From: Clostridia bacterium
GTDB lineage: Bacteria > Bacillota > Clostridia > Christensenellales > Borkfalkiaceae
Reading direction: 5' to 3'
Assembly (NCBI GenBank): GCA_017471785.1
Contig: JAFURP010000023.1
Coordinates: 1-64,000 of the forward strand
DNA: 64,000 bases
Below the pieces are notes generated by a model. It was not told the origin of the DNA and ran no database searches. It saw only the letters and a list, made by a program, of their open reading frames with translations. A program made the translations under genes and the position numbers. Below are positions 9,382 through 60,935 of the stretch, piece after piece (position 1 is the stretch's first letter; every line of letters starts with the position of its first letter).

Positions 9382-11388
9382 TTATTCGCACGTTTTATTC
9401 AATTCGTCGCGATACAAGAGCGCAAACAAGCCTCCCTGCACCGTTCGGTTGCGGAAGGTGCTGTACGTACCCTTTTCGCAGGAATACCAATCGGAAAACG
9501 GTACGCGATCGGGCGTTTCGGCAAGGAATTTGCAAAGATAAGCGAATATCTTTTTTTGCTTTTCCCTATCCGAAGTGCTTGCCGCAAGCCAGCCGTGCCA
9601 ATCCGTTTTCGCGCTGTCCGAACGATTGTCCAAGGGTATACCGTACGCGTTCGCACGCGCCAAACAATCGGCAACCTCCTTTTCCGCGATATCCGCAAAC
9701 AGCCCCGTACCGAGGAGCGTATCCGCGGTCAAATTGTATTTCATACTGTAGGAAGCTTCGTTGCCGAGTGCCAAAACGGTATGTCCGTCCGCCGCCGTGT
9801 ATAACCGCTTCCATTCCAAAGCGTACGCTTCCGCCTTTTCACGGTAGAGCTTACCCTCTTCCGTCTTGCCCGAGCTTTCCAATATCTTCGCAAACGCCGC
9901 GATACCGCAGATCGCCTTGATCGCTAAGTTGGCGTTTTTATCAAGATGTCCCGTGAAATCGTCCGTGCAAAGCTGATTTTCGGGGATCAAGCCGTGGGCG
10001 ACGAGATAGTCCGCCCATTTTTTGAAAAGGTCTAAATGCTCGGAAAGCTCCTCGTTGTATACGAGCGCGGAAAGTATCAGCATATTGCCGCACTCTTCCA
10101 CGGGCATTTGCCGTTCGTCGTCGTAGAGCTCGAAGCTCGCAGGGAACGTATAAAAGGGCGCCAAGCTTTCCTGTTGCTTCCATTCGCGAACGTACACCTC
10201 GCCGTTGGGATGCTCTGCCTTGACCGCGTAAAGCTGTCCGCAACAATAGGGATAGATACCTGCGTCGTGCGGCGCAAAATCGTTATTCCACACGGGCATA
10301 CGCGCAAAATCGAAGATGGGTCGAAGCATACCGCGCACCAGCTCGGGGGCGTACAGTAAAAACAAGGGCGCGGACGGATAGGTCACGTCCACCGTCGCGA
10401 TACAGCCGTCCGAATTACACTCCTTCGAGAGCCATAAAAGCCGTTTTTTACTATCCTCCACGAGCTTATGCGCGCCCATGGTCTGACGAAGCGCCGCGCG
10501 GAGAACGAACAAATATTCCTCGCCGTACGCTTCGCAACGTTTGGACAGATCGTCGTCGAACGCCTTGCATTTTGCCAAAGCCTCGTCCTCGCCCAGCCAA
10601 GCCTCTTGCATAGCTTCGAACACCGTCTTGCCGCTGCTGTAATAATAGCCCTTGAGCCACTCGCCGTAATAGTTGATGGAGCAAAGATCGTTGAACGCAA
10701 GCAAAAACTTACCCTGCAGGGCTACGCCTTTCACGGCGTTTTTCGCGCCGTTTTCCGCGTATATCCAACGCCGCGTTTCTTCCTCGTACCAACCCGCGCT
10801 TTCTCCTGCCACGTACCAATACCCCCAATCGGCGCCGAACTCGTCGGAGGAATGGGACATCGGATACTGCCGCAAAAGCCCTACGCTGGCACAGGCAAAG
10901 CCGTTGAGCGAGAAACGGCAAACGTTCACCGTTTCCTTTCGGGCTTCGTCAAAGCAGGTGTTGTACGCGATACGCTCCTCCACGGAGAAACGAACGGTCG
11001 CTTCCTTAATATCCGCTTTGGGCGTAAGCGCATAGCGCAAATAACACACGGGACGGGAAGCAAGCGATAGATCGGTGGGCAAAAGCGGAGAAAGAAAGCT
11101 TACCTTTAATTCAAACCGCTCGCACTCGAAAGTATAATCGGTGGAAAACGCCGAAATACGCACGCTCGTTTGCGGTAAGGGATTTTCCCCTTTCCCCAAA
11201 AAGGTATACGCTTTTCCGTCCACGCATACCTTGCCGAGCATAGGCTTTTCTTCACCGTGCCAAAAAACGGGCGCCGCGCCGTTCAACTCGTCCGCCGCCG
11301 ACCACAACGAAAAATACGGGTCGTTAACGAAAAGCGGATACGCAGGTAATCTGTCCACCCCGCGTTGCGGCTTTTTTTCCATACTACT
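9382..11388 (-). CDS. DUF4964/DUF4965/DUF1793 'glutaminase A-like' protein
   Basis: A 668-aa protein. The N-terminus LPAYPLFVNDPYFSLWSAAD is the hallmark of the DUF4964 family, followed by the DUF5127/4965-like beta region and an alpha/alpha-toroid C-terminal half (DUF1793-like) with the closing motif FRNRTVQGGLFALLY. Relatives are annotated as glutaminase A in fungi, but in bacteria the family is uncharacterised and often sits near glycan genes; the real substrate is uncertain. No signal peptide is visible, so it is probably cytoplasmic. The start at 11388 is chosen for its AGAGG 4 nt upstream; an ATG at 11433 would read through a strong hairpin. It is the last gene of the operon. Confidence 0.78.
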   Translation of the reverse strand, partial: SSMEKKPQRGVDRLPAYPLFVNDPYFSLWSAADELNGAAPVFWHGEEKPMLGKVCVDGKAYTFLGKGENPLPQTSVRISAFSTDYTFECERFELKVSFLSPLLPTDLSLASRPVCYLRYALTPKADIKEATVRFSVEERIAYNTCFDEARKETVNVCRFSLNGFACASVGLLRQYPMSHSSDEFGADWGYWYVAGESAGWYEEETRRWIYAENGAKNAVKGVALQGKFLLAFNDLCSINYYGEWLKGYYYSSGKTVFEAMQEAWLGEDEALAKCKAFDDDLSKRCEAYGEEYLFVLRAALRQTMGAHKLVEDSKKRLLWLSKECNSDGCIATVDVTYPSAPLFLLYAPELVRGMLRPIFDFARMPVWNNDFAPHDAGIYPYCCGQLYAVKAEHPNGEVYVREWKQQESLAPFYTFPASFELYDDERQMPVEECGNMLILSALVYNEELSEHLDLFKKWADYLVAHGLIPENQLCTDDFTGHLDKNANLAIKAICGIAAFAKILESSGKTEEGKLYREKAEAYALEWKRLYTAADGHTVLALGNEASYSMKYNLTADTLLGTGLFADIAEKEVADCLARANAYGIPLDNRSDSAKTDWHGWLAASTSDREKQKKIFAYLCKFLAETPDRVPFSDWYSCEKGTYSTFRNRTVQGGLFALLYRDELNKTCE

Positions 11389-11404
11389 CATAACACCTCT
11401 AACA

Positions 11405-11428
11405 GGGGCGGAGGTGTTTGCCTCCGCC
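11405..11428 (-). other. intercistronic hairpin
   Basis: GGCGGAGG/CCTCCGCC with a 6-nt loop between two co-directional genes, without a T-run. It may stabilise or process the polycistronic mRNA rather than terminate it. Confidence 0.5.
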
Positions 11429-11449
11429 ACCAAACCTTATAATTATTTT

Positions 11450-13996
11450 TTACGCCGCCTTTCTCGTGAGCGCGGGAAGCTCGCCCTCTACGATCGTCCA
11501 AATAGAAGGATCGAAATCCGCCAAGCTTACCGTTTCGGCGTTTACGTCCGTCCACAAATCCGTCGCCGTCTTATAAACGCCGTAGTTCGTAGCTGCATTG
11601 GAAGCGTTAGTACTTTCAAAAGCACCCACGGCAACGTAAGAGCTGGGAGCTACACCACCTACCGTATACGAAGCCAAGGAAAATACGTTTTTCATAGTCG
11701 CACCCGTTCTATTCCAACCGAGTACGGCGCTGTAAACGCTTTCTTGATAATCGCTGCCTTTAAGATCTGCAATACAATTTTCTATTAACCCGCCTTTTTG
11801 GTTATACGCTACAATCGGAGCTGCATTGGAAGCGTTTAATCCACTGCCAACCGAGGTTGAATCTCTATTCAGCGTAAGCGTTACCTTACAATTGCGTACC
11901 GTTCCGTAATTATTGAAAACCAAACCTGCAGCTTTTCTCCAGTTAGCACCCGTTACCGCTACGTCCAAATTTTCGATAACGCCTCCAGCTTCGAGCTTCT
12001 TAAACAAACCGCCTTCATCAAGTTTCGCTATCGTTAAATTTTTAACGGAATAGCCACGACCGTCCAAGGTACCCGAAAATGTTGTAATATATTGAATCGG
12101 CGTTGCCCCTGCACCGTCAACATCGTTCGCAAGGTAAAATTTAGCCGACGTACTCGTATTCATTAACCACCAATCTTCCAAATCGGAGATCTCATTCCAA
12201 TATTCGCTGGTTACGGGAACTTCCACGCTATCCTCGCCCTTGGTCACCGTGACCGTCGCCGTACCGTCGCCCACGGCTTGCACCGTGCCGTTTTCTACGG
12301 TCGCAACGTCCGTCGCGGAGGAAGCCATGCTCAAGCCGTCGGTAATTACGTTGTAATCACGGTCGTACACGGTGAGCGCAAATTGTCCTACGCCCTTATC
12401 GGGGTGGGTATTCAACGCAATAGACGAATCCAACACGATCACGTTGCCGCGGCTTGCGTTCAAGAGCACGGGCGCTCTGCCGGCAGGCTTACCCCAAACG
12501 GCGTTCGCAAAGTCCGAAAGATCGACAGCCGCCGCCATTTCCGCTTCGCTTGCGTAAACGCCGCAGGTCGCGGAAATCGTACCCGAACCGTTTGCATTAA
12601 ACGGAGATACTGCGTAGAGGTTTTTAGTAGTACCAGCGTTATCGCCTATAAGAGCGTTAAAGTATTCTCCCGTGCCAATACTACCCGTCGCCACTACGAT
12701 ACAGTTTTCGATCAAACCGTCGGTCGAATTGGCGCGTGCAATCGCACCCACCGATTGAGCATTATTTATACTACCCGTCGTCATCTCTACCTTAATCTTA
12801 CAGTTGCGGATAGTACCGTAGTTTTGATTAACGAGCAAGCCGAACGATTTTAACGTGCCCGTGGGTGCGTTGATCTCCAAGTTCAAGTTTTCGATCACCC
12901 CTTCGGTCCTATCAAACAAGCCGCCGTTATGATACCAAGGATCGACGTCGATGCCTACGTTCTTAAACGTATAGCCGTTACCGTTTACCGTACCCGTAAA
13001 CGAGGGACGGGAGGTATTGGTATCGTAGCCGCCGATCTGAGGCGCGTTTGCGCCGTTGCCGTCGATATCCGCGGTCAGCTCGTAATAGCCCGTTAAATCG
13101 TCCGAGATCGAGGTCCAATCGGCGTAATCGTCGATCGTTTTCGTGATATACTTAAACGAGGAGGTCTTGGCGTAGTTGCCGTTATCGTCGAACAGGGTAA
13201 GCGTGTAGTCCTTACCAAGCTCCACCGCCGTAGGATCGAGAATGAGCGTCGTACCGCTGACCGTACCTACCTTTTTCGCGTTCGCGTACGCTACCGTATA
13301 CGCGCTGTTTGCCAACGCGCCCGTGCCTTCGCTCGATTGATAGTACGCGCCGTCGTAGGCGATATCCGCGCCGCCCGTGCCGAAGTAGCCGTTGATGACC
13401 TCTTTTTCTTCGGGCTTGTACGTGTCGTATACCTCGGTATTTTCCTTAGCCGCAAGCGCGACCGAGCGAATACTTCTCGCAACGTCGCCCACTTCCGCAT
13501 AGATCGGCTCGTTCTCGCCGATGACCACGTACGAGCGCGCGGTAAGCTCCGCCTTGTACGCGGCGAGCCTTTCCGCTTCCGTCGTCAAATCGTTATACGT
13601 GATCGCGCCGCCAAAGGTGAATACGCCGTCTTGGAACTCGATCTCGCCCGCCTTTTCGGAAGCGGACACGATCGTTTTCACGGGCGCTTCCGCGGTGTTT
13701 TCAAAGCTCGTGTTGGTTGCTTCAGTCACCTGCGTATAGAAGGTGACGGTGGTGTCGGCGGCAACATTTTGCTCCGTCCACCAAGCCTCGGACACGTGGC
13801 TCTTCCAACGGATACCCGAAGCGCCCTGCGTTTTTCTTACGGACGCGCCGTCCTCCATCCAAAAGGTTTTCGTCGTATCCGTAGCCGCGCTCGTTTGCAC
13901 GGTCGGTTGCGAATAATTGGCGATCGCAAAAGCCGCGCAAGCCGTCGCTACGCCTGCGAAAAGAGTTACGAATTTCTTTTGATCTTTTCTTTTCAT
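11450..13996 (-). CDS. secreted GLUG/Big_2 repeat protein
   Basis: An 848-aa protein with a signal peptide (positively charged start, hydrophobic stretch, cleavage likely near QTSAA, about residue 38) and no lipobox. Residues ~45-230 resemble the 'GASVRKTQGASGIRWKS' domain common in secreted Clostridia proteins. Then two rounds of GLUG-type motifs (GLLVNQNYGTIRNC, AGLVFNNYGTVRNC) flank a Big_2 Ig-like domain (about residues 530-600, ATVTVTKGEDSVEV). No sortase signal, SLH or dockerin is visible. Start ATG follows AAGGAGGAGAAG. It shares long near-identical stretches with the next two genes. The likely role is surface adhesion or glycan contact, by inference. Confidence 0.75.
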   Translation of the reverse strand: MKRKDQKKFVTLFAGVATACAAFAIANYSQPTVQTSAATDTTKTFWMEDGASVRKTQGASGIRWKSHVSEAWWTEQNVAADTTVTFYTQVTEATNTSFENTAEAPVKTIVSASEKAGEIEFQDGVFTFGGAITYNDLTTEAERLAAYKAELTARSYVVIGENEPIYAEVGDVARSIRSVALAAKENTEVYDTYKPEEKEVINGYFGTGGADIAYDGAYYQSSEGTGALANSAYTVAYANAKKVGTVSGTTLILDPTAVELGKDYTLTLFDDNGNYAKTSSFKYITKTIDDYADWTSISDDLTGYYELTADIDGNGANAPQIGGYDTNTSRPSFTGTVNGNGYTFKNVGIDVDPWYHNGGLFDRTEGVIENLNLEINAPTGTLKSFGLLVNQNYGTIRNCKIKVEMTTGSINNAQSVGAIARANSTDGLIENCIVVATGSIGTGEYFNALIGDNAGTTKNLYAVSPFNANGSGTISATCGVYASEAEMAAAVDLSDFANAVWGKPAGRAPVLLNASRGNVIVLDSSIALNTHPDKGVGQFALTVYDRDYNVITDGLSMASSATDVATVENGTVQAVGDGTATVTVTKGEDSVEVPVTSEYWNEISDLEDWWLMNTSTSAKFYLANDVDGAGATPIQYITTFSGTLDGRGYSVKNLTIAKLDEGGLFKKLEAGGVIENLDVAVTGANWRKAAGLVFNNYGTVRNCKVTLTLNRDSTSVGSGLNASNAAPIVAYNQKGGLIENCIADLKGSDYQESVYSAVLGWNRTGATMKNVFSLASYTVGGVAPSSYVAVGAFESTNASNAATNYGVYKTATDLWTDVNAETVSLADFDPSIWTIVEGELPALTRKAA
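12830..13050 (-). repeat. near-identical GLUG-coding repeat, copy 1
   Basis: Part of the 848-aa GLUG gene. It matches 14588-14805 with blocks of about 50 identical bases (for example the segment coding for APTGTLKSFGLLVNQN and that coding for IGGYDTNTSRPSFTG). Confidence 0.75.
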
Positions 13997-14009
13997 CTTC
14001 TTCTCCTCC

Positions 14010-14144
14010 TTAACTTGACCACGCCTGATCAAAGGCTTCGGTGCCCTCCGACATAGGTGCGTCGGTCTCCGTTACCGAGGTTCGAACTACGTCGTCTTCG
14101 AAAATCGACCACGTGAGTTCAGGGGTTGCATACGTTCGTTTCAT
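14010..14144 (-). CDS. 44-aa peptide of unknown function
   Basis: A short gene with a very strong ribosome binding site (TAAGGAGG, 6 nt before the ATG) lies between two GLUG genes. It begins MKRTYATPEL, contains FEDDVVRTS, is acidic in its second half and ends AWSS, then TAA. It has no membrane segment or cysteine. Its stop codon overlaps the ribosome binding site of the following gene, so translation is probably coupled. The tyrosine-x-x-proline start and the ED-V-TS core resemble short unannotated proteins of gut Clostridia that I recall loosely; I cannot name a family. It could be a RiPP-like precursor, a leader or a toxin-like peptide; none is proven. Confidence 0.6.
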   Translation of the reverse strand: MKRTYATPELTWSIFEDDVVRTSVTETDAPMSEGTEAFDQAWSS

Positions 14145-14151
14145 ATAAATC

Positions 14152-14190
14152 CTCCTTATTTTTTACGACTATAGCGCAAAGAGTCAACGC
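14152..14190 (-). other. intercistronic hairpin before the 44-aa peptide
   Basis: Leftward GACATAGCG/CGCTATAGTC (one bulge) lies between the GLUG lipoprotein gene and the 44-aa gene; it has no T-run, so it may process or stabilise mRNA. Confidence 0.4.
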
Positions 14191-14205
14191 TATGTCTATA
14201 TTTTT

Positions 14206-16428
14206 TTATTTCTTCAAAGCGGGCAACGCGGTTTCCGATACCGTCCAAAGGGAGCGGTCGAACGTATCGAACGTTACGCTTGCCAATAATTCCGCTTCGG
14301 TTGCGTATACCGCGTAGCTTTGGTTGGCTACCGCGCCTACGTCTTGACCGCAAGCGGCAAACGGAGATACGGCGTATACGTTTCGTATCTTGCCCGTAGC
14401 CGTATTCGCACCTGCGATCGAAGCAAAATATTGCCCTGCTTCGACGCTGCCCGTCGCGACTACGATACAGTTTTCGATCAAGCCGTTATTCGCGCGAACG
14501 AGCGCGCCTGCCGAGCTTACGCCGTTGACGTTGCCCGTCGTGACGGCGACCGTCAGCTTACAGTTGCGAATGATACCGCTGTTTTGATTGACGAGCAAGC
14601 CGAACGATTTTAACGTGCCCGTGGGTGCGTTGATCTCCAAGCTCAGGTTTTCGATCACGCCGCCGAACATATCGAACAAGCCGCCGTTATGCTTCCAAGG
14701 GTCAACGTCGATACCGACGTTTTTCAGCGTATAGCCACGGCCGTCCACCCTACCCGTAAACGAGGGACGGGAGGTATTGGTATCGTAGCCGCCGATCTGC
14801 GGCGCCGTTGCGCCCTCGCCGTCGATATCCGCCGTAAGATAGAAGTTGGACGAATAGTCCTCGTTCGTTGCGATCGCGCACCAATCCGCGTACGAGGAGA
14901 TCGCTTTCCAATGCTCGCAATCCACCGTTACCTCCACGCTATCCGCACCCTTTATGACGGTGATCGTCGCCGTGCCGCTGCCCGTTACGGTGATCTCGCC
15001 GTTATCCGAGACGGTCGCGACCGTCGTATCCGAGGACTCGAAGCTTAAACCGCTCGCGATCAAATTGTAATCCCGATCGTACGCTAAAATTACGTTATTA
15101 CTTTCCGCGTCGGGGTGGTCGTTCAACGAAAGCAGCGTGTCGAACACGACCAGCTCCGCCCTATCCGCGTTCAGCAATACGGGGAGCCTGTTTTGCGGTT
15201 TGCCCCAAGCCGTCGACGGGAACACGGAAACGTCCGCAAGGTTTTGGAAATATTCCATATCGATATACGAGCACACGTTCGTCGAAGCGCCTATATCGCG
15301 GCAGTACGCGCCGTATACCTCGGAAAGCGCGTAGGCGTTGACGACGGCGCCTTGGTTTAAGCCTGCGACGCTTGCAAATCTTTCGCCCGTTGCGCCCGTT
15401 CCGTTTACGGAAGCGATACAGCTCTCGATCGTGCCCGTAATATCGTTTTTACCGACGATCGCGCCTGCGTAATAGCCCGTGGGCGCGCCGTGCGTAAGCG
15501 TTATATCCACGAAGCAGTTGCGTACCGTGCCTTTGTTGATCGCGGCGATACCGCCCCAGCATTTGACCGCCGTTTCGGGCGAAGCTACGGATACGGAAAG
15601 GTTTTCCACCACGCCCGTTGCGCCGATCGTGCCGAAAAGTCCGCCGTTCCAGCCCCACCAATAGTCCGTTACGCTATAGCCGCCGAGCTGATATCCGCAA
15701 CCGTCGAAGCGGCCCGTAAATTCCTCGTTCTCCCCGTCTACGGGCGCGATCATTGCAAACTCGCCCGCGCCCGTGATATTAGAGGTAAGATAGTAGCTGC
15801 CGTCCAAATTTTCACGGACGGTATCCAGCTCCGCTTCGCTTGCGATCGCTTGCCACGAATATACCTCGACGGTCGCGACGTTTTCAAAGCGCACGCCCTG
15901 CCAAACGACGGTCAAGGAGGTCGAGCCGTCCGTTACCGCGGTCAGCGTGTTACCGCCGAGCGTTGCAACGCTCGTATCCGCAACGCCGACGGTGATATCG
16001 GACAGCGCGTTGCCGTCGGTATCCGTAAAGCCGCCGAGCGTATACGTGCTCGATCTATCCGTACGGTTGAGGTGCAATTCGACGGTGTCCATCGTTTGCA
16101 CTTGCAGCCATTTTGCCGTTAACGTCACGTTTTGCGTATACGCGGCAGTTTCCGCGGCCACGAGGGTTTCCCCGTCGTACCACCCGCCGAACACGCCGTT
16201 TGCGTTCGTCGGCGTGGGCAATTCACCGAGCGCCTGCCCTATTTCGAGCTCTTTACTGCTCGCCGCGCCCTCCGCGAGCGCGCCGCCGTTCACGTCGAAC
16301 GTAACGGTATACTTCGCCACGGGCGTTGCGGGCTCTTCTTCCTCCTCATTATCGCACGCGACCAGCGCAAACGCGCCGAACAGGGAAAGCAAAAGGGTAA
16401 GAAGTAGTCTTTTTTTCGTTTTCTTCAT
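14206..16428 (-). CDS. GLUG/Big_2 lipoprotein with an InlB B-type repeat
   Basis: A 740-aa lipoprotein: basic start, hydrophobic core and lipobox ending at the cysteine in FALVAC (about residue 25), followed by an acidic DNEEEEE tether. Residues ~38-108 are a Listeria-Bacteroides (Flg_new/InlB B) repeat, YTVTFDVNGGALAEG ... GGWYDGETLV ... LTAKWL. After this come an Ig-like stretch, GLUG motifs (GGIAAINKGTVRNC, GALVRANNGLIENC), a Big_2 domain (ATITVIKGADSVEV) and another GLUG block. ATG after GGAGGCG. It is probably anchored on the outside of the membrane and binds glycans or proteins; this is inferred from domains only. Confidence 0.78.
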   Translation of the reverse strand: MKKTKKRLLLTLLLSLFGAFALVACDNEEEEEPATPVAKYTVTFDVNGGALAEGAASSKELEIGQALGELPTPTNANGVFGGWYDGETLVAAETAAYTQNVTLTAKWLQVQTMDTVELHLNRTDRSSTYTLGGFTDTDGNALSDITVGVADTSVATLGGNTLTAVTDGSTSLTVVWQGVRFENVATVEVYSWQAIASEAELDTVRENLDGSYYLTSNITGAGEFAMIAPVDGENEEFTGRFDGCGYQLGGYSVTDYWWGWNGGLFGTIGATGVVENLSVSVASPETAVKCWGGIAAINKGTVRNCFVDITLTHGAPTGYYAGAIVGKNDITGTIESCIASVNGTGATGERFASVAGLNQGAVVNAYALSEVYGAYCRDIGASTNVCSYIDMEYFQNLADVSVFPSTAWGKPQNRLPVLLNADRAELVVFDTLLSLNDHPDAESNNVILAYDRDYNLIASGLSFESSDTTVATVSDNGEITVTGSGTATITVIKGADSVEVTVDCEHWKAISSYADWCAIATNEDYSSNFYLTADIDGEGATAPQIGGYDTNTSRPSFTGRVDGRGYTLKNVGIDVDPWKHNGGLFDMFGGVIENLSLEINAPTGTLKSFGLLVNQNSGIIRNCKLTVAVTTGNVNGVSSAGALVRANNGLIENCIVVATGSVEAGQYFASIAGANTATGKIRNVYAVSPFAACGQDVGAVANQSYAVYATEAELLASVTFDTFDRSLWTVSETALPALKK
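14588..14805 (-). repeat. near-identical GLUG-coding repeat, copy 2
   Basis: Partner of 12830-13050, in the 740-aa lipoprotein gene. A more diverged third copy lies in the 913-aa gene near 16840-17070. Direct orientation would allow recombination or gene conversion between neighbours. Confidence 0.75.
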
Positions 16429-16450
16429 TATTTTTCGCCTCCTTGCCGCG

Positions 16451-19192
16451 TTAGCTTTGTTTTTTGAGCGTAGGTACTTGCCCGTCTACGATATTCCAAA
16501 TCGAAGCGTCGAAGGTTTCGAAACGGACGGCTAAGAGCAATTCCTCGACCGTTGCGTACGCCGCGTAGTTTTGGTTGGCTACCACGCCCACGTCGTTCTT
16601 TGCCGCCTCAAACGCGGACACGGCGTATACGTTTTGGATCCTGCCCGTACCGCTGTTTTCCGCGACGATCGCAAAATAATCCTCGTCCGCGCCTACGCTG
16701 CCCGTAGTCACTACGAGACAGTTTTGGACCAAGCCCGAATTGAGCCCGACGAGCGCCGACGCGTTGTTGCCCGTAGGAACGCCTTGCGTAACGTCCGTCG
16801 TTACCTTACAATTTTTGATCGTGCCGCCGTTACTGTATACGAGCAAGCCCCAAGTTCTGATTCTATTGCCAACGCTGTTTTCCACGGTCGGGCTGATCGC
16901 TTCCAAGCTCAGGTTTTCAACGATACCCGACATTTGATCGAACAAGCCGCCCTGATGACCGTACGCGTTCGTGCCGATAACGACGTTTTTGATCGTATGG
17001 CCGCGGCCGTCCACTCTACCCGTAAACGAAGTGCGGTTGGTGCCGTAATAGTCGCCGCCGATCACGGGAGCGCGTTCGCCCTCGCCGTCGATATCCGCAA
17101 CGAGGCAGAAGTTGGAGCTGTAATCTTTATTCGTTTCGATCGCGCACCAATCCGCGTACGAGGATATTTGCTTCCAACCCGTAACGTTGACCGTGAGCAT
17201 ATTTTCAAACAACACGCCGTCGTAGCGAACGGAAACCTTCGCCTTACCTGCGCCGACCGCCGTTACCAGCCCGTTTTCGTCGACCGTCGCGACGTTCCCG
17301 TTATCTACGATATACTCAAGCCCCGTCGTTACCGCTTCGTTCTCCTCGTCGTAGATTTGGATTTGATAGGTATTCGTTAGGTCGGGGTGGTTATGATCGA
17401 GACTGACCTCCGCCGTTTGCGTAAAGATAACGGAGGGCAAGATCATAACGGTAACCGAAGCCGTTTTTCCGTTATAGAAAGTCGCGTTCACGGTAAACGA
17501 GCCTTGCGCCTTGCAGTTAATTTGCAGGCTGTGATCGTCGTTGACGGAAATATCCGCGTATTCTTCGAAACCGCTGATGGAGTATTCCGTGGGCACGCCT
17601 TTAAGATTTGCCAGGTGCAACGCGTACGATTTATCCACCTCGAGATAGTAGGTGCTTTGTTCGCCTGCGCTTATATAGCCGTTAAGGTGCGGTACTTCGC
17701 CGTCCGCTACGTGCCAAATACTCGTATCGAACGTGGAGAAATTCTCGCTCGTAAGCATTTCTTCCGTCGACGTAAACCGATAGCAATCGGTGACCGTGCC
17801 GTCGGGCGTGCTCGCCACGAGCGGAAGCTCCTTATTCGAGGTTACGACGTAGCAATTTTCCACCGTGCCGTAGTTACAGCCGCCGAGCGTGCCCAAAAAT
17901 TCGTATTTTTGCGCCGCCGTCAGCATTACGATACAATTACGGATCGTGCCGTCGTAATAGTTGTTTCCGAACAAGCCGCCGCCCTCGTGATATTTGGACA
18001 CGGCGCCCGTATACACGCTGACTTCCACGTAACAGTTTTCCACGAGTCCGTAGTTGATCGCCACGATCGCGCCGAATTCCTTATTGTCCGTAGCAAAGTG
18101 CGAATCGAGCACGGCTACGTTGCGAATGACGGAATGGGTATTCGTTTGACCGAAAAGCCCGCTGTGCCAGCCGCTCTTATATTGGATACGCTTGAGCGCA
18201 TAGCCGTTGCCGTCGAACTCGCCGCCGAAATACGTTTCGGGAGGAAGTCCGCTGCCCGCCCAAGGGGTGATGCTCGACCAAGTCGCGCCCTCGAAATCGA
18301 TATCGTTCATCAAAAGATAGCGCGCGGTCAGATCGTCGCGTATGCCGTCAAGATCGGAAACGGTACGGACGGATTTATAAATATCCACCTCGCAAACCGC
18401 TCTTTCGCCTCGGTATTCCGCCGCAACGTACGTTTTACCCGTGGCAAGCGCGTTGATATAGCCGTTCCCTACCTGTAAAATTTCGGGATCGCCGCTCGTC
18501 CAAATAATATCCGAAGCGTCCGCCTCTACGCCGTTGATCTTGATATTCGTACCCAGCTTGCACATTTTCAGCTGCGGCTCGTTGACGAACAGCGTCAACG
18601 CGTACGCTTCCAAGCCGAGCTCGACGACGTCCGTAACCGTAACGGTGCATTTTGCCGTCTTACCCTCGCCTTGCGCGGTGATCTCGGCAACGCCCTTTTT
18701 CAGTCCCACGACCACGCCGCCGTCTACCGTAGCCACCGTCGTATCCGAGCTGGACCAAGTAACGCTTACGGGTCGTTCGATCAAGCCCAAACGGTATTCG
18801 GGGATCAGTCTTACGGAAGCGCCGATAGGCACGGACGCCGCCGTTTTATTCAAGCTGAAATACGCTTCCGAAGAAACGGTGAGCGTAAGCTTTGCGCTTG
18901 CGCCGCCGACGGTCGCCGTAATTTCGGCAACGCCGTCCTTGACCGCCGTGATCTTTCCGTTGACAACGGTCGCCACGCTCTCGTCGGAGGTCGACCAAAC
19001 GACTGCTTCCGTCGAGCCCGTGACCGTCGCTTCCGCCGTGAACGATTCGCCCATACACAAGGTCTTTTCGGTATAATTCAACACGACGCTTACGGAGGGC
19101 TCCTCCTCTTTATCGCAAGCAAAACAGCCAAACAGTACAGACAGCAGGAGCAAGGGTAGAAGAATTGCTTTCTTTAAGAAATTTTTCATCAT
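16451..19192 (-). CDS. GLUG/Big_2 lipoprotein with three N-terminal Ig-like domains
   Basis: A 913-aa lipoprotein: lipobox cysteine in FGCFAC near residue 26. Three bacterial Ig-like (Big_2) domains occupy about residues 32-270 (the pattern SWSTSDESVATV / WSSSDTTVATVDGG ... GVAEITA is clear), followed by GLUG-type repeats (GLFGQTNTHSVIRN, GAIVAINYGLVENC, GLFGNNYYDGTIRNC), a further Ig-like domain and a last GLUG block close to that of its two neighbours. The start at 19192 overlaps the stop of the DUF4838 gene by 4 bases (ATGA), so translation is coupled; GGAGGG lies upstream. A second ATG follows immediately at 19189. Confidence 0.78.
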   Translation of the reverse strand: MMKNFLKKAILLPLLLLSVLFGCFACDKEEEPSVSVVLNYTEKTLCMGESFTAEATVTGSTEAVVWSTSDESVATVVNGKITAVKDGVAEITATVGGASAKLTLTVSSEAYFSLNKTAASVPIGASVRLIPEYRLGLIERPVSVTWSSSDTTVATVDGGVVVGLKKGVAEITAQGEGKTAKCTVTVTDVVELGLEAYALTLFVNEPQLKMCKLGTNIKINGVEADASDIIWTSGDPEILQVGNGYINALATGKTYVAAEYRGERAVCEVDIYKSVRTVSDLDGIRDDLTARYLLMNDIDFEGATWSSITPWAGSGLPPETYFGGEFDGNGYALKRIQYKSGWHSGLFGQTNTHSVIRNVAVLDSHFATDNKEFGAIVAINYGLVENCYVEVSVYTGAVSKYHEGGGLFGNNYYDGTIRNCIVMLTAAQKYEFLGTLGGCNYGTVENCYVVTSNKELPLVASTPDGTVTDCYRFTSTEEMLTSENFSTFDTSIWHVADGEVPHLNGYISAGEQSTYYLEVDKSYALHLANLKGVPTEYSISGFEEYADISVNDDHSLQINCKAQGSFTVNATFYNGKTASVTVMILPSVIFTQTAEVSLDHNHPDLTNTYQIQIYDEENEAVTTGLEYIVDNGNVATVDENGLVTAVGAGKAKVSVRYDGVLFENMLTVNVTGWKQISSYADWCAIETNKDYSSNFCLVADIDGEGERAPVIGGDYYGTNRTSFTGRVDGRGHTIKNVVIGTNAYGHQGGLFDQMSGIVENLSLEAISPTVENSVGNRIRTWGLLVYSNGGTIKNCKVTTDVTQGVPTGNNASALVGLNSGLVQNCLVVTTGSVGADEDYFAIVAENSGTGRIQNVYAVSAFEAAKNDVGVVANQNYAAYATVEELLLAVRFETFDASIWNIVDGQVPTLKKQS

Positions 19193-21111
19193 ATCTTTTC
19201 CCTCCAGCCTGCGACCAAATTGGCGATACTGTAGCTTTCCGTCGACGTTTCGCGCCACCACATAATACCGTGCATATTCGCGTATAATTCAAACTCGTCG
19301 ATCATCGTCGTAAGCTGCGCGGTCGTATAGTACGCGGTATATAAATTGAGGATCAAGAAGGTGGTGGACAAGGACTCTATCTTAATTCTCGTATACAGCG
19401 TTTCGTACATAAGAGGGTCGCTGTTTTCGATCGCCGCGTACGCCTTATCGAAGATACGCATGCATTGATCGAGGAAGCCCTTGCTCCAATAATCCGCGTT
19501 GATAACGTCCACGTAGCAATTTGCGTCCATTACCTTGGGATATTTTTGGCGGATACCCTCTTGATAGCTTTTCAGCACGTTATAATACTCGAACATCGCG
19601 TCGCCGGCTTCGTGATAATAATGCTGCATAAATTCAGCGACGAGCTCGTCGTAGGAAAGCGCGGTGTTCCACATAAGCTGCGATTGTACGTACGCTCTCA
19701 TCGCGTCGAACGAAACCGAGGGCGTATTCCACGCGCCTTGATCGAACAACACCGTTGCGCCTGCGGAGTAATATTCGCGGTAATGCGTAGCCATCGTACC
19801 CCATTGCGCGAAGTTCACCGAATAGTTCCAAAAATTAGCGCTATACGACCAAACGGTGATATTGTCCGTAACCGCCGACCAACCGTCCAACGCGTCCGCC
19901 GTTTCCTGATTTTCCGGCGTATGGAATTCGTACGAATAATTGGCGTGCAAGGGTGCGATCTGCACCGCTACGTTCGGCTCGGCTACGACGGAGGGATCGT
20001 TGGGCACCCATTCCCCGTCCTCGTTTTTATGCGCCGGCGGCGTGAGCGTTTGGAAATACGAAAGCGCGACGAACGTCAAATCTCGTCCCGGCTGCGTTTC
20101 GTCCAACCACGCTTTTATATCGCGCGCTACGGCGTTCACGAACCGCATATCCACGGCGCTTGGCGTGCCGTATTGCGCGATCGCCGCCTTGCAGTTATCA
20201 CATTCGCAAAATACGTTGAGGTCCTGCGCGCCAAGCGACATATATTTGATATTGGGCAAGCTCGCAACGAGCTCTTTTACGTTCTCTACGAACTGCTTTC
20301 TCATTTCCTCGTTGGTAAGACAAAGCTGCGTTCCCGCAGGGCTGTACCAATCGGGGTGCTTATCGTAATAGGTTTCTTTAGGCAAGATCTTGAAATGCGA
20401 GTGCGAGCCGAACGCCCATTGCTCGCCGTGCTTATCCACGCGCAAACGGGTCTTATAATCGTAATTTGCCTGCGGCTCGTACAAGCCCAGCATACGCTGT
20501 GCAAAATCGGGGATCTCGCGAATGGCGAACCGTAAATACGGGATCTCCCGTACGTTTTCCCGATAGTAGATCTCGTCTATCGAATAAAACTTATAATCGA
20601 CGAGCTTATTCAAGAAATGGTAGACGGAATAGAGCGTACCGTCCCCCTCGCCGCCCAGCAAAAACACGCTGTCGCCGCGCGATTCGATCTTATAGCCGTC
20701 CGAACCGAACTCCGCATAGGGTACGGTGACACCCGCTTCGCTGACGAGCGACGTTTCGCCGATAGATATGTATTTCGCTTCGTCGGAATGGGAAAGTCCC
20801 GCGTCCGTAACGGTGGAAAGCGTAACCCCCGTCGCTTGCTTGAAGAACTCCACGAGCTCCTCTTTCGCTTCCACTTCTCTATCGCTTGCATTCACGGGCA
20901 AAACGATCTTATAATCGGTCTTGCCGTCTTTCAAAAAATACTTATTCGCAACGGCGATCGAGTCGTCCACGTGGTTGGCGCTGTTATCCTTTCCGACGAA
21001 TTCGGAAATGACCGTGCCCTTGTCGTCGCTCGCCTTTTTGCAAGCGAACAAACACCCCAGCGCCATCGTTATACTCAAAGCGACCGCTACGATCTTTATT
21101 TTACGTTTCAT
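19189..21111 (-). CDS. DUF4838 lipoprotein (glycosidase-like)
   Basis: A 640-aa lipoprotein with lipobox cysteine in CLFAC (residue 24). Residues ~60-180 form a GH20b/alpha-glucuronidase-N-like domain (EAKEELVEFFKQATG, SVYHFLNKLVDYKFYS), and ~190-500 the DUF4838 TIM-barrel region, with HSHFKILPKETYYDKHPDWYS, CLTNEEMRKQFVENVKEL and a Cys-rich VFCECDNCKA motif. DUF4838 proteins resemble GH67/GH20-type enzymes but their activity is not established. It is likely outside the cell, trimming the glycan whose products the importer takes up. Stop overlaps the start of the next gene by 4 bases; ATG after AGGGGGAAG. Confidence 0.82.
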   Translation of the reverse strand: MKRKIKIVAVALSITMALGCLFACKKASDDKGTVISEFVGKDNSANHVDDSIAVANKYFLKDGKTDYKIVLPVNASDREVEAKEELVEFFKQATGVTLSTVTDAGLSHSDEAKYISIGETSLVSEAGVTVPYAEFGSDGYKIESRGDSVFLLGGEGDGTLYSVYHFLNKLVDYKFYSIDEIYYRENVREIPYLRFAIREIPDFAQRMLGLYEPQANYDYKTRLRVDKHGEQWAFGSHSHFKILPKETYYDKHPDWYSPAGTQLCLTNEEMRKQFVENVKELVASLPNIKYMSLGAQDLNVFCECDNCKAAIAQYGTPSAVDMRFVNAVARDIKAWLDETQPGRDLTFVALSYFQTLTPPAHKNEDGEWVPNDPSVVAEPNVAVQIAPLHANYSYEFHTPENQETADALDGWSAVTDNITVWSYSANFWNYSVNFAQWGTMATHYREYYSAGATVLFDQGAWNTPSVSFDAMRAYVQSQLMWNTALSYDELVAEFMQHYYHEAGDAMFEYYNVLKSYQEGIRQKYPKVMDANCYVDVINADYWSKGFLDQCMRIFDKAYAAIENSDPLMYETLYTRIKIESLSTTFLILNLYTAYYTTAQLTTMIDEFELYANMHGIMWWRETSTESYSIANLVAGWREKI

Positions 21112-56261: not shown

Positions 56262-56266
56262 TATGC

Positions 56267-56295
56267 AAAAAAAACCGAGCAAACGCTCGGTTTTC
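56267..56295. terminator. bidirectional terminator between araC and the ABC exporter
   Basis: Perfect stem AAAACCGAGC/GCTCGGTTTT with a 4-nt loop and flanking A and T runs. Confidence 0.92.
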
Positions 56296-56296
56296 T

Positions 56297-57985
56297 TTAT
56301 GCGTTATCTACGGTGATCTTACCGTTTTCCACACGCAAAATCTTATCGGCGATATCGAGCGCCGCAGGTCGGTGGGTGACGATCAAACAGGTTTTATCCC
56401 GTAAATTCTTAATATTTTCCAAAAGCTTGCGCTCCGTTTCTCCGTCGAGCGCCGAAGTCGCTTCGTCGAGTAAAAGCACGGGGCGATCGGACAAGATGGC
56501 GCGCGCTACGGCAAGCCGTTGCATTTGTCCCTCGGAAAGCCCTGCGCCCCCCTCGGAAAGGGGCGTTTGTAGACCTTGCGGCAACTCCCAAACGAATTCC
56601 GCACAAGCGGTTTTTAAGGCTTTTTCCACCTTTTCATCCAAGCGCGCCCGATCGGTTTCCTCCGCGAAGAACGTCAAATTTTCGTAAATCGTGCCCGAAA
56701 AAAGGAATTTTCCCTGCGGCACGTATGCAAACAAGCCGCGATCCTTTGCCGTCAGCTCTACGCGCTCCGTTTCGCCGCGCAAGTAGATACCTCCCTCCGT
56801 CGGCGTAAATACGTGCAATAAAAGCTTGAACAGCGTGCTTTTACCCGCTCCCGAGGCACCCGTTACGCACACGATCTCTCCCTTTTCTACGCTTGCGTTC
56901 GCGTCCGTCAACACGGTTTCTCGACCGTAGGTAAAAGCCACTTTTTCAAAAGAAATATCGCGCAGCGTTTCATACGCGGCTTTCGCTTTGTCCTTTTCCA
57001 CGGAAACCGTTTCGCTGGGCAACGCGTCAATTTCTTGCAACCGTTCCCCGCTCGTCAATCGCGCGTAATACGCAGGGATCACCGAGGAGAACGCCGAGAA
57101 GGGATGTTGTAACTGCATCAACAATAAAATCACGGATAAGATGGAGCCGTAATCGGTCGTTTCACCGATAAGCACGCTGACGCTGCACCAAACCACCGCA
57201 AAGATCAAACCGAAATTACTAAGCAGCGTAAAAACGGCGTTCATAGACGAACGCACGACGTTGCGCTTCATACGCTTTTGATAATATACCTCGTCCAGCC
57301 CTTTCGCTTTGTCCGTGGTCTTGTCCTCCGCACCGTACGCTTTAAGCGTCAAAACGGAGGAGATACCCTCCTGCATAAACGAACGGGTCGCGCCGTCCGC
57401 TTGCAACGTTTCCTTTTGTCTTTTTTTGATCTCCTTACGGAAGATCGCCGTAATACCACCGAAAATACCGCCGCAAAGCACGTAGATAGCCGTGAACAAC
57501 GGATCGATAGTAAGCAACGCCGCAACCGCGCCCAAGCATTGAACGACCATTCCCACGATCGCGGGAAGCAAGCCGACCGTATCGACGGAAACCTCGTAGA
57601 TATCCGTCGTTAAACGGGTGATCCACTCGCCGCTGTGATACCCCTGCAACTGCCCGTAATCGGAGCGCAAAAGCTTGGAAAAGGTTTTCGTTCGAAGCTC
57701 TGCGACGATTTTTGCGCGCAGCTTCTCGGATAAAAATCCCGAAACCGTTTGGAGGGCAATTCGAAGCAATAATATTCCCAATAAAACGCCGGCAAATATC
57801 CATAAGCCGCTCGCATTCTTCGCCGTAGCGCTATTGATAAGATACTTTACCATATATGCAAAGGCAAGCGAAAGCGCCGTGCCAAGCACGGTCATCACGG
57901 TCAAAAACAAAATGCGCGCGCGATAAGGGCGCATTTCTTTTTTCAACCAACGCCTTCCGTTTGTAGAGGTCTTTTCTTGCGACAT
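56297..57985 (-). CDS. ABC exporter, fused membrane and ATPase domains
   Basis: A 562-aa type-IV ABC half-transporter: six transmembrane segments (about residues 20-310), then an ATPase with Walker A GASGAGKST, signature LSEGQMQRLAVAR and Walker B VLLLDEATSALD. There is no N-terminal C39 peptidase, so any leader removal must be done by another enzyme; the S26 peptidase encoded just upstream is the obvious candidate. It probably exports a peptide made by the kinase/PqqD module. ATG at 57985 follows AAGGGGAGAG; 23 nt after the peptidase gene. Last gene of the operon. Confidence 0.92.
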   Translation of the reverse strand: MSQEKTSTNGRRWLKKEMRPYRARILFLTVMTVLGTALSLAFAYMVKYLINSATAKNASGLWIFAGVLLGILLLRIALQTVSGFLSEKLRAKIVAELRTKTFSKLLRSDYGQLQGYHSGEWITRLTTDIYEVSVDTVGLLPAIVGMVVQCLGAVAALLTIDPLFTAIYVLCGGIFGGITAIFRKEIKKRQKETLQADGATRSFMQEGISSVLTLKAYGAEDKTTDKAKGLDEVYYQKRMKRNVVRSSMNAVFTLLSNFGLIFAVVWCSVSVLIGETTDYGSILSVILLLMQLQHPFSAFSSVIPAYYARLTSGERLQEIDALPSETVSVEKDKAKAAYETLRDISFEKVAFTYGRETVLTDANASVEKGEIVCVTGASGAGKSTLFKLLLHVFTPTEGGIYLRGETERVELTAKDRGLFAYVPQGKFLFSGTIYENLTFFAEETDRARLDEKVEKALKTACAEFVWELPQGLQTPLSEGGAGLSEGQMQRLAVARAILSDRPVLLLDEATSALDGETERKLLENIKNLRDKTCLIVTHRPAALDIADKILRVENGKITVDNA

Positions 57986-58008
57986 ACTCTCCCCTTTGCC
58001 AAAGTAAA

Positions 58009-58467
58009 TTATTTTCTCCAACCGAACGCGCGCAAGATCTTTTTACACGCGCCCTTTATCTTCCATTTGATCCGCACGAAAAACCGACGGAATTTATACG
58101 TTTTCAAGCGCTTATTTGCGTAGCGGATATATTTTTCGTCCGTGCATACGATATGCTTATTTTTGCGGTAAAACTCCGTCAAAACGCCGAATACCGCGTC
58201 TTCGGGCACCTTTTCATCCACGTAACAATTATCGCCGCGAATGATATAACCGCCCTCCACCGCTTCCAAAACGCGGTGCAAAACGTAAGCGTCGCCCCGT
58301 TTATAGAGCGCGACGTCCAGTCTTTTCAAGCGCTCCGTCTTGGGTACCACGATGATCGTATCCCGACGGTTTTTCAGCATGGGAAGCATACTCACGCCCA
58401 CCGTCGGTCCGACGTATTTACCCTGCAAACGCAGTACGTCCTCGATTTTCAGCCTTTCCGTTTCCAT
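58009..58467 (-). CDS. S24/S26 family peptidase (signal peptidase-like)
   Basis: A 152-aa protein with the S26 box GVSMLPML (nucleophile Ser26), VALYKRGDAYVLHRV (His64, at the place used by the SipW/ER-type Ser-His group), and IIRGDNCYVDE. There is no clear transmembrane segment, which is unusual for a signal peptidase; the C-terminal third is very basic (KFRRFFVRIKWKIKGACKKILRAFGWRK) and could bind membrane. It lies between pqqD and the exporter. It may cleave an exported modified peptide. Confidence 0.78.
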   Translation of the reverse strand: METERLKIEDVLRLQGKYVGPTVGVSMLPMLKNRRDTIIVVPKTERLKRLDVALYKRGDAYVLHRVLEAVEGGYIIRGDNCYVDEKVPEDAVFGVLTEFYRKNKHIVCTDEKYIRYANKRLKTYKFRRFFVRIKWKIKGACKKILRAFGWRK

Positions 58468-58476
58468 GAACCTATC

Positions 58477-58740
58477 TTACTCCGCAAAACCGTTCGCGAC
58501 GATCGTTTTGACAAATTGCTCTACGTCCGCGCGCGCAAGCTGCTCGTCCACGTCGTACTCGGCAAGCAGCGCGGCAACGCCCTCGTCAACGGTGTGCTCC
58601 GCGGAAAAGAACGTCCATAAAAACGCCCCCGTTTCATTGAGGTTGATCATACCGTGAAATTGTTTGCTCATCTCGCCGACGGGCACGACGACGCTTTCGC
58701 CGCCCACCTTACGAAGCACGAATCCTTTTTTGATTTTCAT
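58477..58740 (-). CDS. PqqD-like protein (RiPP recognition element)
   Basis: An 87-aa PqqD-family protein: N-terminal three-stranded pattern GFVLRKVGGESVVVPVGEMSKQFHGMINLNETGAFLWTFF and a helical second half. PqqD-like RREs bind the leader of ribosomal precursor peptides and present it to modifying enzymes. ATG follows GGAGGA. It is placed between an HprK-like kinase and an S26 peptidase; no radical SAM, cyclase or precursor gene is adjacent. Confidence 0.85.
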   Translation of the reverse strand: MKIKKGFVLRKVGGESVVVPVGEMSKQFHGMINLNETGAFLWTFFSAEHTVDEGVAALLAEYDVDEQLARADVEQFVKTIVANGFAE

Positions 58741-58754
58741 ATTTGTTTCCTCCG

Positions 58755-59474
58755 TTATCTTTTCGAATATTCTTTACCCGTCATAGCCTCGTACGAAGCC
58801 TTGACCGCGTCCTCCGAAATGGTACATTTCAAAAGATACGCGGGGGTTTTTGCGATCAATTCGTCGGCAAGCTCCAAGGTTTTCGCCGCGTTTTCCTCGT
58901 CCGTCGGCAATAAAATTTGCGAAAACAGTCGCGTTGCCGCTTCCGACGGCGAGAGCCGAACGATCTCGTTCGTTTTCGCCTGCTCTAAAAAGCAAAGTCC
59001 TTTGAGCGGCACGGACGAATTACAGCCAAGCCCCTCCTTGCCCATCCACGGCGTACCGTAGGCGATAAAATGCTCCTTCGCAGCCTGCAAAATGGGTTTA
59101 TCTCCGTTGACGATCTTCGAGCCGTCCAAATATTTGAGCCAAAGCCCCGTATGCGTGGATTTCCCCGTTCCGCTCTTACCCAAAAACGCATAGCCGTTTC
59201 CGTCGTATTCGAGTACGGCGGCGTGCAACAACATCCTATTCAACGACGGAAGCTGACGGCAAATGCCGCGATACAGGCAAATATTTTCGATATAACCGTC
59301 CGAGAAATCTTGTACGCTGGCGTTTTTTTCCTCGTAAAATTCCTCGTTGGTCACCTTGGCGGACAAATGGACGGGCGAGGTTTGGTCGGCGGATAAATAC
59401 GCCGCGCAAAAGCGCTCCGTGTATTTGCATCTATTTTCTATTAAAATACGCAAGCCTGCGATATCGTAGATCAT
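58755..59474 (-). CDS. HprK-like P-loop kinase
   Basis: A 239-aa protein related to the C-terminal domain of HPr kinase: RMLLHAAVLEYDGNGYAFLGKSGTGKSTHTGLW with Walker A GKSGTGKST (99-107), and VNGDKPIL and GTPWMGKEGLGC as the HprK-type acidic and phosphate-binding loops. It lacks the HprK N-terminal domain. Related stand-alone kinases occur in lasso-peptide clusters of Bacillales, where they phosphorylate a C-terminal serine of the precursor. ATG after GGGGGAAAGGA, 21 nt behind purB, so it is co-transcribed with that housekeeping gene. Confidence 0.82.
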   Translation of the reverse strand: MIYDIAGLRILIENRCKYTERFCAAYLSADQTSPVHLSAKVTNEEFYEEKNASVQDFSDGYIENICLYRGICRQLPSLNRMLLHAAVLEYDGNGYAFLGKSGTGKSTHTGLWLKYLDGSKIVNGDKPILQAAKEHFIAYGTPWMGKEGLGCNSSVPLKGLCFLEQAKTNEIVRLSPSEAATRLFSQILLPTDEENAAKTLELADELIAKTPAYLLKCTISEDAVKASYEAMTGKEYSKR

Positions 59475-59495: not shown

Positions 59496-60935
59496 TTAAA
59501 CGCGTACGTCGCCCTTTTCACCCAACCAATCGGCGTATTTTTCTAAGATCGGGTCGATCTCGTTTTCGATAAATTCCACCGTTTGCGAAGGGGCGCGACC
59601 GATAAATTTCTTCGCGTCGAGGATATCGTCGATATGATCCCAAACGGGCTTGAACGTTTCGTCCCTTTTGATCAAATCGATCAGGTTGTTTTCACCGCCC
59701 TCGACCTTGACGTTTTTACCCGCTTCCATAGAAAGCACGCGGATCCGTTCGTGTAATTCCTGACGGTTGCCGCCCGCTTTCACACATTCCATCATGATAT
59801 TTTCCGTTGCCATAAACGGTAATTCCGCGCGAATATGCTTGGCAATAACCTTATCGTACACGACGAGGTTTTCCGCTACGTTCATATAAATATTCAAGAT
59901 CGCGTCCACGGACAAAAACGCCTGCGCGTTGACGATACGCCGATTCGCCGAATCGTCGAGCGTTCTTTCAAACCATTGCGTGGAAGCGGTGAGCGCGCTG
60001 TTCATAGGCAAGGAGATCACGTAACGGGCAAGCGCGCCGATACGCTCCGAGCGCATGGGATTGCGCTTATACGCCATCGCCGACGAACCGATTTGATTTT
60101 TCTCAAACGGCTCCTCGATCTCTTTCATATTTTGCAAAATGCGGATATCGTTCGAAAATTTGTACGCGCTTTGCGCGATTTGGGAAAGCACGCAAAGAAC
60201 GTTGTAATCGAGCTTTCTGGGATACGTTTGTCCCGTCACCCCGTACACCTTTTCGTAGCCCATTTTCGCCACGACGCGCTTTTGCAATTCCTTGACCCTT
60301 TCCTCGTCGCCGTTGAAAAGCTCCATAAAGCTTGCTTGCGTACCCGTCGTGCCCTTTACGCCGCGAAGCTTGATGTTCGCCTTGGCGTTTATCAGGTTTT
60401 CGTAGTCCATTTCCAAGTCCTGCAACCAAAGAGTAGCGCGTTTGCCTACCGTCGTAAGCTGCGCAGGCTGCAAATGGGTAAAGCCAAGCGTAGGCATATC
60501 TTTATACTTCAAAGCAAAACGCTTTAATTTATCCATTACGTTGACGAGCTTTTTAAGAATGATATCCAGCGCCTCGTCGAGCATGATCGCTTCGGCGTTG
60601 CAATTGACGAAGCAGCTCGTCGCGCCAAGGTGAATGATAGGCATAGCCTTTTTCGCGTACGCACCGTACGCTTTTACGTGCGCCATTACGTCGTGGCGCA
60701 CCTCTCTTTCGAATTTTGCCGCAAGCTCGTAATCGATATCGTCCGCATACGCCTTCAAATCGTCCACCTGCTCTTGCGTAACGTTCAAGCCAAGCTCCAT
60801 TTCCGATTCCGCCAACGCGATCCAAAGCTTTCTCCAAAGCTTGAAACGCTTCTCGTCCGAAAACGCGTGCTGCATTTCCTTGCTCGCGTATCTCGTGATC
60901 AACGGGTTATTGTAAATGCTATTGTCCGTCATCAT
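59496..60935 (-). CDS. purB: adenylosuccinate lyase
   Basis: A 479-aa fumarase/aspartase-fold lyase acting at two steps of purine synthesis (SAICAR to AICAR, adenylosuccinate to AMP). The family signature GSSAMAYKRNP occupies 283-293; THLQPAQLTTVGKRA (153-167) holds the catalytic His. ATG pair follows GAGGTGAG, 6 nt behind the cyclophilin stop. Confidence 0.96.
   Translation of the reverse strand: MMTDNSIYNNPLITRYASKEMQHAFSDEKRFKLWRKLWIALAESEMELGLNVTQEQVDDLKAYADDIDYELAAKFEREVRHDVMAHVKAYGAYAKKAMPIIHLGATSCFVNCNAEAIMLDEALDIILKKLVNVMDKLKRFALKYKDMPTLGFTHLQPAQLTTVGKRATLWLQDLEMDYENLINAKANIKLRGVKGTTGTQASFMELFNGDEERVKELQKRVVAKMGYEKVYGVTGQTYPRKLDYNVLCVLSQIAQSAYKFSNDIRILQNMKEIEEPFEKNQIGSSAMAYKRNPMRSERIGALARYVISLPMNSALTASTQWFERTLDDSANRRIVNAQAFLSVDAILNIYMNVAENLVVYDKVIAKHIRAELPFMATENIMMECVKAGGNRQELHERIRVLSMEAGKNVKVEGGENNLIDLIKRDETFKPVWDHIDDILDAKKFIGRAPSQTVEFIENEIDPILEKYADWLGEKGDVRV

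Follow-up and report, generated by a model that had tools for sequence, protein, structure and literature searches.

We have analyzed four consecutive genes in a 64,000-nucleotide stretch of DNA from a Clostridia bacterium (the window), encoding an HprK/PEPCK-like kinase, a PqqD-like protein, a soluble S26-type peptidase and an ABC exporter. We consider it probable that these genes provide a trans-acting machine for the maturation and export of short precursor peptides whose genes are dispersed. The relation between the module and the precursors is well supported by sequence, whereas their role at the cell surface is hypothetical, though the statistics are suggestive. With a genetically encoded precursor linked to its enzymes, the module is by sequence RiPP-like.

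The four-gene set

The genes lie in tandem on the minus strand at 56297-59474, in the order kinase (58755-59474), PqqD (58477-58740), S26 peptidase (58009-58467) and exporter (open reading frame 56297-58021). The reading frames are real and tightly packed. The gaps are 14 nt between kinase and PqqD, 9 nt between PqqD and S26, and 23 nt between S26 and the exporter ATG at 57985, in agreement with the gene order, direction and spacings of 9-23 nt given in an earlier note on this DNA. That ATG, picked from sequence with AAAGGGGA in front, is the best exporter start; the TTG at 58021 chosen by the ORF tool is less likely, and overlaps the S26 gene. An intrinsic-terminator-like hairpin with a T run (56266-56299, minus strand) ends the operon behind the exporter. 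At the other end purB (59496-60935, minus strand; mentioned as context only) precedes the kinase gene by 21 nt, and the two probably share transcription. The earlier note had the set driven from a housekeeping nucleotide operon, but purB, cyclophilin and dCMP deaminase adjoin it in the closest relatives only and are absent beside the others. Their neighborhood is a lineage-specific location, and carries no functional clue.

The kinase (239 aa) is a putative peptide kinase of the HprK/PEPCK superfamily. No Pfam model scored over its cut-off, the HprK domain PF07475 included, and the likely assignment to a P-loop kinase fold of this superfamily comes from profiles and a predicted structure. The AF2 model (pLDDT 96.9) matches PEPCK in the PDB with Z 13.0, and Foldseek leads to HprK/P. 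Conserved residues are H84, the sequence G99-x-x-G-x-G-K-S-T-H and D125; H84, S101, G104, K105, T107, H108 and D125, with others, are kept in all 59 aligned relatives. Going by printed positions with no alignment, the spacing H84-(15)-G99-x-x-G102-x-G104-K105-S106 is identical to that of H148-G163-G166-G168-K169-S170 in the lasso kinase BsfK (PMC10368454). A separate canonical HprK (PF07475) is encoded on the same contig (C44:77165-77665). This copy, together with the lasso-kinase motif pattern, argues that the kinase of the set is not the canonical HPr kinase, action on HPr being the finding that the earlier note had said would tell against its proposal.

The PqqD-like protein (87 aa; PF05402, 6e-17) finds its best matches in the NCBIfam lasso_PqqD models (lasso_PqqD_Bac 8e-9, under the curated cut-off). 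A profile of its family matched the solved RREs TbiB1 (9e-11) and TfuB1 (2.5e-8). On this sequence evidence it is a stand-alone lasso-type (B1) RRE, in keeping with its earlier reading as a PqqD-type leader-binding protein.

The S26 protein (152 aa) also lies under every Pfam cut-off, and profiles and a predicted fold make it likely that it has the signal-peptidase-I/LexA fold with the Ser box present. Its AF2 model (pLDDT 95) matches type I signal peptidases with Z 9.9, and the sequence contains S26-M27-x-P29, H64-R65 and G78-D79. All 55 aligned members keep S26, M27, P29, H64, R65, G78, D79 and E85. The C-terminal helix is basic. No transmembrane helix was found in sequence or model, so the suggestion that this peptidase has no membrane anchor stands.

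The exporter (56297-57985) is a fused permease/ATPase (PF00664, 8e-32; PF00005, 4e-26). A Pfam search found no C39 peptidase domain, as had been noted before. Models of defence systems matched only the exporter, through generic ATPase similarity.

Recurrence of the set

Scanning one genome per species yielded at least 595 kinase relatives. We analyzed the 66 loci with enough flanking sequence among the best 80 of these, counting same-strand partners up to 3 kb away. PqqD was found at 55 loci, S26 at 49 and the ABC exporter at 33, and all four genes occurred together at 27; the co-occurrence in other genomes on which the earlier proposal depended is thus observed. The commonest order is kinase-PqqD-S26-ABC. 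The cyclase-free set recurs with intact frames across a broad range of Firmicutes, named carriers including Ruminococcus flavefaciens Y1, Kandleria vitulina DSM 20405 and Streptococcus merionis DSM 19192. Among the NCBIfam models ScmC is the commonest match (51/59 kinases), the window proteins scoring far under the curated cut-offs.

A recurrent neighbor, at 27 loci, is a nucleotidyltransferase cluster (NTP_transf_5), with 26 of 27 genes on the same strand; the five members checked were all PF14907. The nucleotidyltransferase of the present genome (C3:1638-2348) was rejected as part of the system. Its neighbor is glycosyltransferase-like, and several close relatives have the gene in sugar or polysaccharide loci.

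A family of precursors that tracks the kinase

Listing the short genes that co-occur with the set, a check proposed in the earlier note, brought out a family of peptides sharing a leader. This was first recognized in genes beside the module as MKKxYxxPExEVIEFExEDVITTSG. The family now comprises about 110 short peptides, with consensus MKxxYxxPxhEhhxFxxEDVITTS (h, hydrophobic) followed by a mostly acidic core of 6-39 residues; no Pfam or NCBIfam family scored over its cut-off. An example is a precursor of R. flavefaciens Y1 (..TTSNTHSNSSNEPIELPLVPLR). Precursors adjoin the module in many relatives, and stand in tandem in L086 and L072.

Co-occurrence was tested in a sample of 151 genomes of the order, a phylum-wide sample being too thin. 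The leader profile was positive in 11 genomes, comprising 10 of the 14 with the kinase and 1 of the 137 lacking it (Fisher p = 9e-12; p = 9e-10 on removal of two genomes that had lent rows to the profile). The earlier idea of a ribosomal peptide encoded elsewhere is borne out to the extent that such a family exists and tracks the kinase, though in place of a single precursor there are many, dispersed and tied to genes for surface proteins. The one kinase-negative genome with precursor matches, G010, may carry a divergent kinase. Of the genomes with kinase loci, 48 of 50 contain precursors, spread over many contigs and numbering as many as nine in one genome, a count to be read as description since many of these genomes lent profile rows and some are related. 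No precursor was found in 2/50 of the kinase genomes and in 4/14 in the order sample, which tells against the relation, though metagenome-assembled genomes are incomplete.

The conserved part ends in a junction, (E/D)DV(I/V)xxS. Taking its invariant Ser as anchor (it is also invariant in a free alignment), 100 of 105 precursors have Asp at -5 and 102 have Val or Ile at -4; Tyr stands at -19 in 90 of them and Pro at -16 in 61. The spacing of the lasso leader motif YxxPxL is kept, with Tyr in 90/105, Pro three residues later in 61/105, and Leu, Met, Ile or Val at Y+5 in 93/105. Gly directly follows the Ser in 26 of the 105. The 100 cores have a median length of 16 residues, with 373 Asp or Glu against 55 Lys or Arg, and Cys in four. 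As 21 of the 100 contain neither Ser nor Thr, a conserved phosphorylation site within the core is unlikely. The junction Ser is the sole residue of Ser/Thr type present in all precursors, and would thus be the common target if the kinase has one. Three members (L090:3408-3761, L118:3662-4063 and L113:6360-6791) have cores of about 90-110 residues, so the leader may have small proteins among its substrates as well.

Precursors in the genome under study

The earlier note had found neither precursor nor cyclase. This holds for the four-gene locus itself, but a precursor gene lies in the same window, 44.6 kb away, at 14010-14144 (minus strand). It encodes 44 aa, MKRTYATPELTWSIFEDDVVRTS followed by VTETDAPMSEGTEAFDQAWSS, the division marking the end of the conserved part and implying no cleavage site. 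A Shine-Dalgarno sequence AAGGAGGATTTAT precedes the ATG, and the leader motif is YATPEL. The first seed profile gave only E 1.3. Support came with a broader profile from which the rows of this genome had been removed, giving 23.5 bits (E 2.7e-6), against 8.5 bits for the best of 17,692 shuffled ORFs. There is a faint match to a lasso-precursor model (E 0.05). The junction in this lineage is VRTS, which conforms only loosely to the small residues that signal peptidases require at -3 and -1, a point against the mechanism proposed below.

The genome contains about six or seven dispersed precursor candidates, at least four of them well supported besides the window copy. With the same profile these are C53 (E 1.8e-7), C54 (1.6e-5), C7 (2.2e-4) and C24 (9.6e-4), all well over shuffled ORFs. 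C61 is marginal at 10.0 bits, and C6, at 5.5 bits, is unsupported alone.

Directly upstream of the window precursor lies the gene for a lipoprotein-like surface protein of 740 aa (14206-16428, minus strand), and from this position the two likely form a partner operon. The gene directly downstream (11450-13996, minus strand; ATG 13996), again going by position, would encode a secreted protein. The wider region on this strand (9382-21111) contains genes for large secreted proteins and lipoproteins, with GLUG/Big_2-like domains and a Listeria-Bacteroides repeat. Three secreted proteins near the precursor end in FDxS(I/L)W, resembling AFDQAW of its core. This seems to be a feature of the domain type, and we give it no weight.

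Association with surface proteins

The precursors lie preferentially behind genes for large proteins: 56 of 101 are within 150 bp downstream, on the same strand, of a protein of at least 450 aa, whereas of the 1171 other genes at these loci 103 are so placed. Signal peptides, where used, were called by a crude ad hoc rule. A domain is common to 28 of 60 of the upstream large proteins, mostly at the C terminus and internal in a few, and has no Pfam match; its sequence is of the form ..LSYxxxVL...LVKALYLYNxAAxAYF (e.g., L117:5843-6187 and L135:9600-9946).

Next in order there is often a small lipoprotein, whose C-terminal residues reproduce the core of the neighboring precursor, as in the core/tail pairs PIELPLVPLR/PIELPLVPLR and DEDELPPVVIG/DDDELPPVPVG. 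For 24 pairs the mean match within the locus was 22.75, against 14.04 (sd 1.33) on permutation, giving p <= 1e-4; this is approximate, as one of the 24 cores (L115) is overlong by motif and some loci are related. No significant effect was obtained with an internal segment as control (p 0.07), and a slight one with large secreted proteins (p 0.006). An earlier, stricter test on 12 lipoprotein pairs gave p 0.00035. Many precursor loci have no small lipoprotein. In this genome C53 is the one locus that shows both tail copy and C-terminal domain; there a protein ending SENELPFVKF and a large protein with the shared domain are followed by a precursor containing DENELPFVSF.

Discussion

Lasso clusters that include a kinase, such as those of paeninodin, pseudomycoidin and bsf (PMC9266682, PMC10368454), resemble the set in a stand-alone PqqD-type RRE, the YxxPxL leader, an ABC exporter, an HprK-like kinase with the H..G..GxGKS..D pattern and, in relatives of the set, a nearby NTP_transf_5. 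The set differs in that it has no B2 transglutaminase-like protease or asparagine-synthetase-like cyclase, and a soluble S26 peptidase instead. Its leader is about three residues longer from YxxP to the junction, its substrates are dispersed, and the acidic cores have no evident lasso ring pattern. A search for the B2 peptidase (PF13471) gave no match in this genome, which is 83% complete, and none in 19 of the 20 genomes with the module that it covered. No cyclase (Asn_synthase) is encoded in the set, and the genome has only a 32-residue match (1.3e-4). As these two defining features of lasso clusters were sought and not found, the set is not a lasso cluster; by sequence it resembles the early part of a pathway to phosphorylated lasso peptides, with lasso-type recognition parts and neither cyclase nor B2.

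Other systems offer partial likenesses. The SynChlorMet (ScmC/ScmD) and HPr-rel-A systems of NCBIfam also pair an HprK-like kinase with a PqqD protein, but their other partner genes differ, and we found no paper on either in the open-access literature. Type I signal peptidases share the fold and the SMxP Ser box; the peptidase of the set differs in having no membrane anchor, in being encoded with an RRE, and in carrying an HR motif where the bacterial enzymes have Lys, a trait of the ER and archaeal types. In prochlorosin-type RiPPs a single enzyme set acts in trans on many scattered precursors with a conserved leader and diverse cores; those enzymes, LanM and a C39 peptidase-transporter, are unrelated to the present ones. 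Nor was any description of the four-gene set found in that literature, whose silence is no proof of absence.

In the mechanism that we propose, the RRE would bind the leader through Y-x-x-P-x-[LMIV], and the kinase would phosphorylate the bound precursor, its most likely target being the invariant junction Ser or a residue adjoining it. In the bsf system BsfK phosphorylates its precursor and the RRE BsfB1 speeds the reaction, effects of the YxxPxL residues having been tested (PMC10368454). The known lasso kinases target a core Ser (PMC10368454), and the role of phosphorylation in lasso peptides is still open (PMC9266682). With cores lacking Ser and Thr in the family, a common site would have to be at the junction, or else the kinase does something else. 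The S26 peptidase would stand in for B2 and cut near the junction, the ABC protein would export the acidic core, and the peptide would act outside the cell with surface proteins from its own operon.

The last step can be extended. The peptide and the lipoprotein tail may bind one and the same site of the large secreted protein. The lipoprotein would then hold the large protein at the membrane, and the exported, modified peptide would compete with the tail or cap the site. The core-tail match, the position of the precursors and the shared domain are consistent with this; the binding is putative, the combination of tail copy and domain is confined to C53 in this genome, and many loci lack the lipoprotein, so that we hold it as a tentative idea that may well be wrong. 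A fuller scheme, in which one cytoplasmic module supplies many modified exported peptides, at least some copying the lipoprotein tail of their operon, and competition between peptide and tail docks or releases the surface protein, we think rather unlikely. The products might instead be signaling peptides or bacteriocins, linked to surface genes by shared regulation, with the lipoprotein tail serving as a decoy or for immunity. Their small size, the linkage to an exporter, up to nine precursors per genome and strong variation of the core would all suit this. Among the recurrent neighbors in the kinase-centered loci (the ones clustered, as distinct from the dispersed precursor loci) there is no family of regulators, receptors or immunity proteins, and such acidic cores would be unusual for membrane-active bacteriocins; we are doubtful of this alternative.

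Could the set be a degenerate lasso cluster that has lost its cyclase? The lasso-type RRE, leader and kinase, and the NTP_transf_5 (the lasso N gene) beside the set in many relatives, might suggest so. Yet Gly directly follows the invariant Ser in only 26 of 105 precursors, and the broad recurrence of intact frames with B2 replaced by a different protease looks like an established separate branch and not decay, making loss of a cyclase improbable. That the kinase is a metabolic enzyme or an HPr kinase, in a cluster unrelated to peptides, would be in keeping with its weak similarity to HprK and PEPCK, but is hardly credible given the canonical HprK elsewhere and the conserved linkage to RRE and precursors. 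The trans-acting machine that we favor would belong to a large, apparently undescribed lasso-related branch, having the same recognition and kinase parts with another protease and no ring-forming enzyme. It is common in rumen and gut Firmicutes, its substrates scattered beside surface-protein genes. It supplies targets for phosphopeptide searches, and points to the cell surface as a possible site of peptide action.

Kinase relatives occur in radical SAM loci also (L036, L038 and L040, of the same order), so the kinase is not exclusive to the four-gene set. There kinase and PqqD relatives accompany a SPASM-like radical SAM protein, joined in L038 and L040 by a short gene for a Cys-containing peptide, and we read these loci as a possible sister system with another modifying enzyme. 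At L035:3461-6930 PqqD, kinase, S26 and ABC genes are found with a radical-SAM-like gene, two Cys-rich precursors and one longer precursor.
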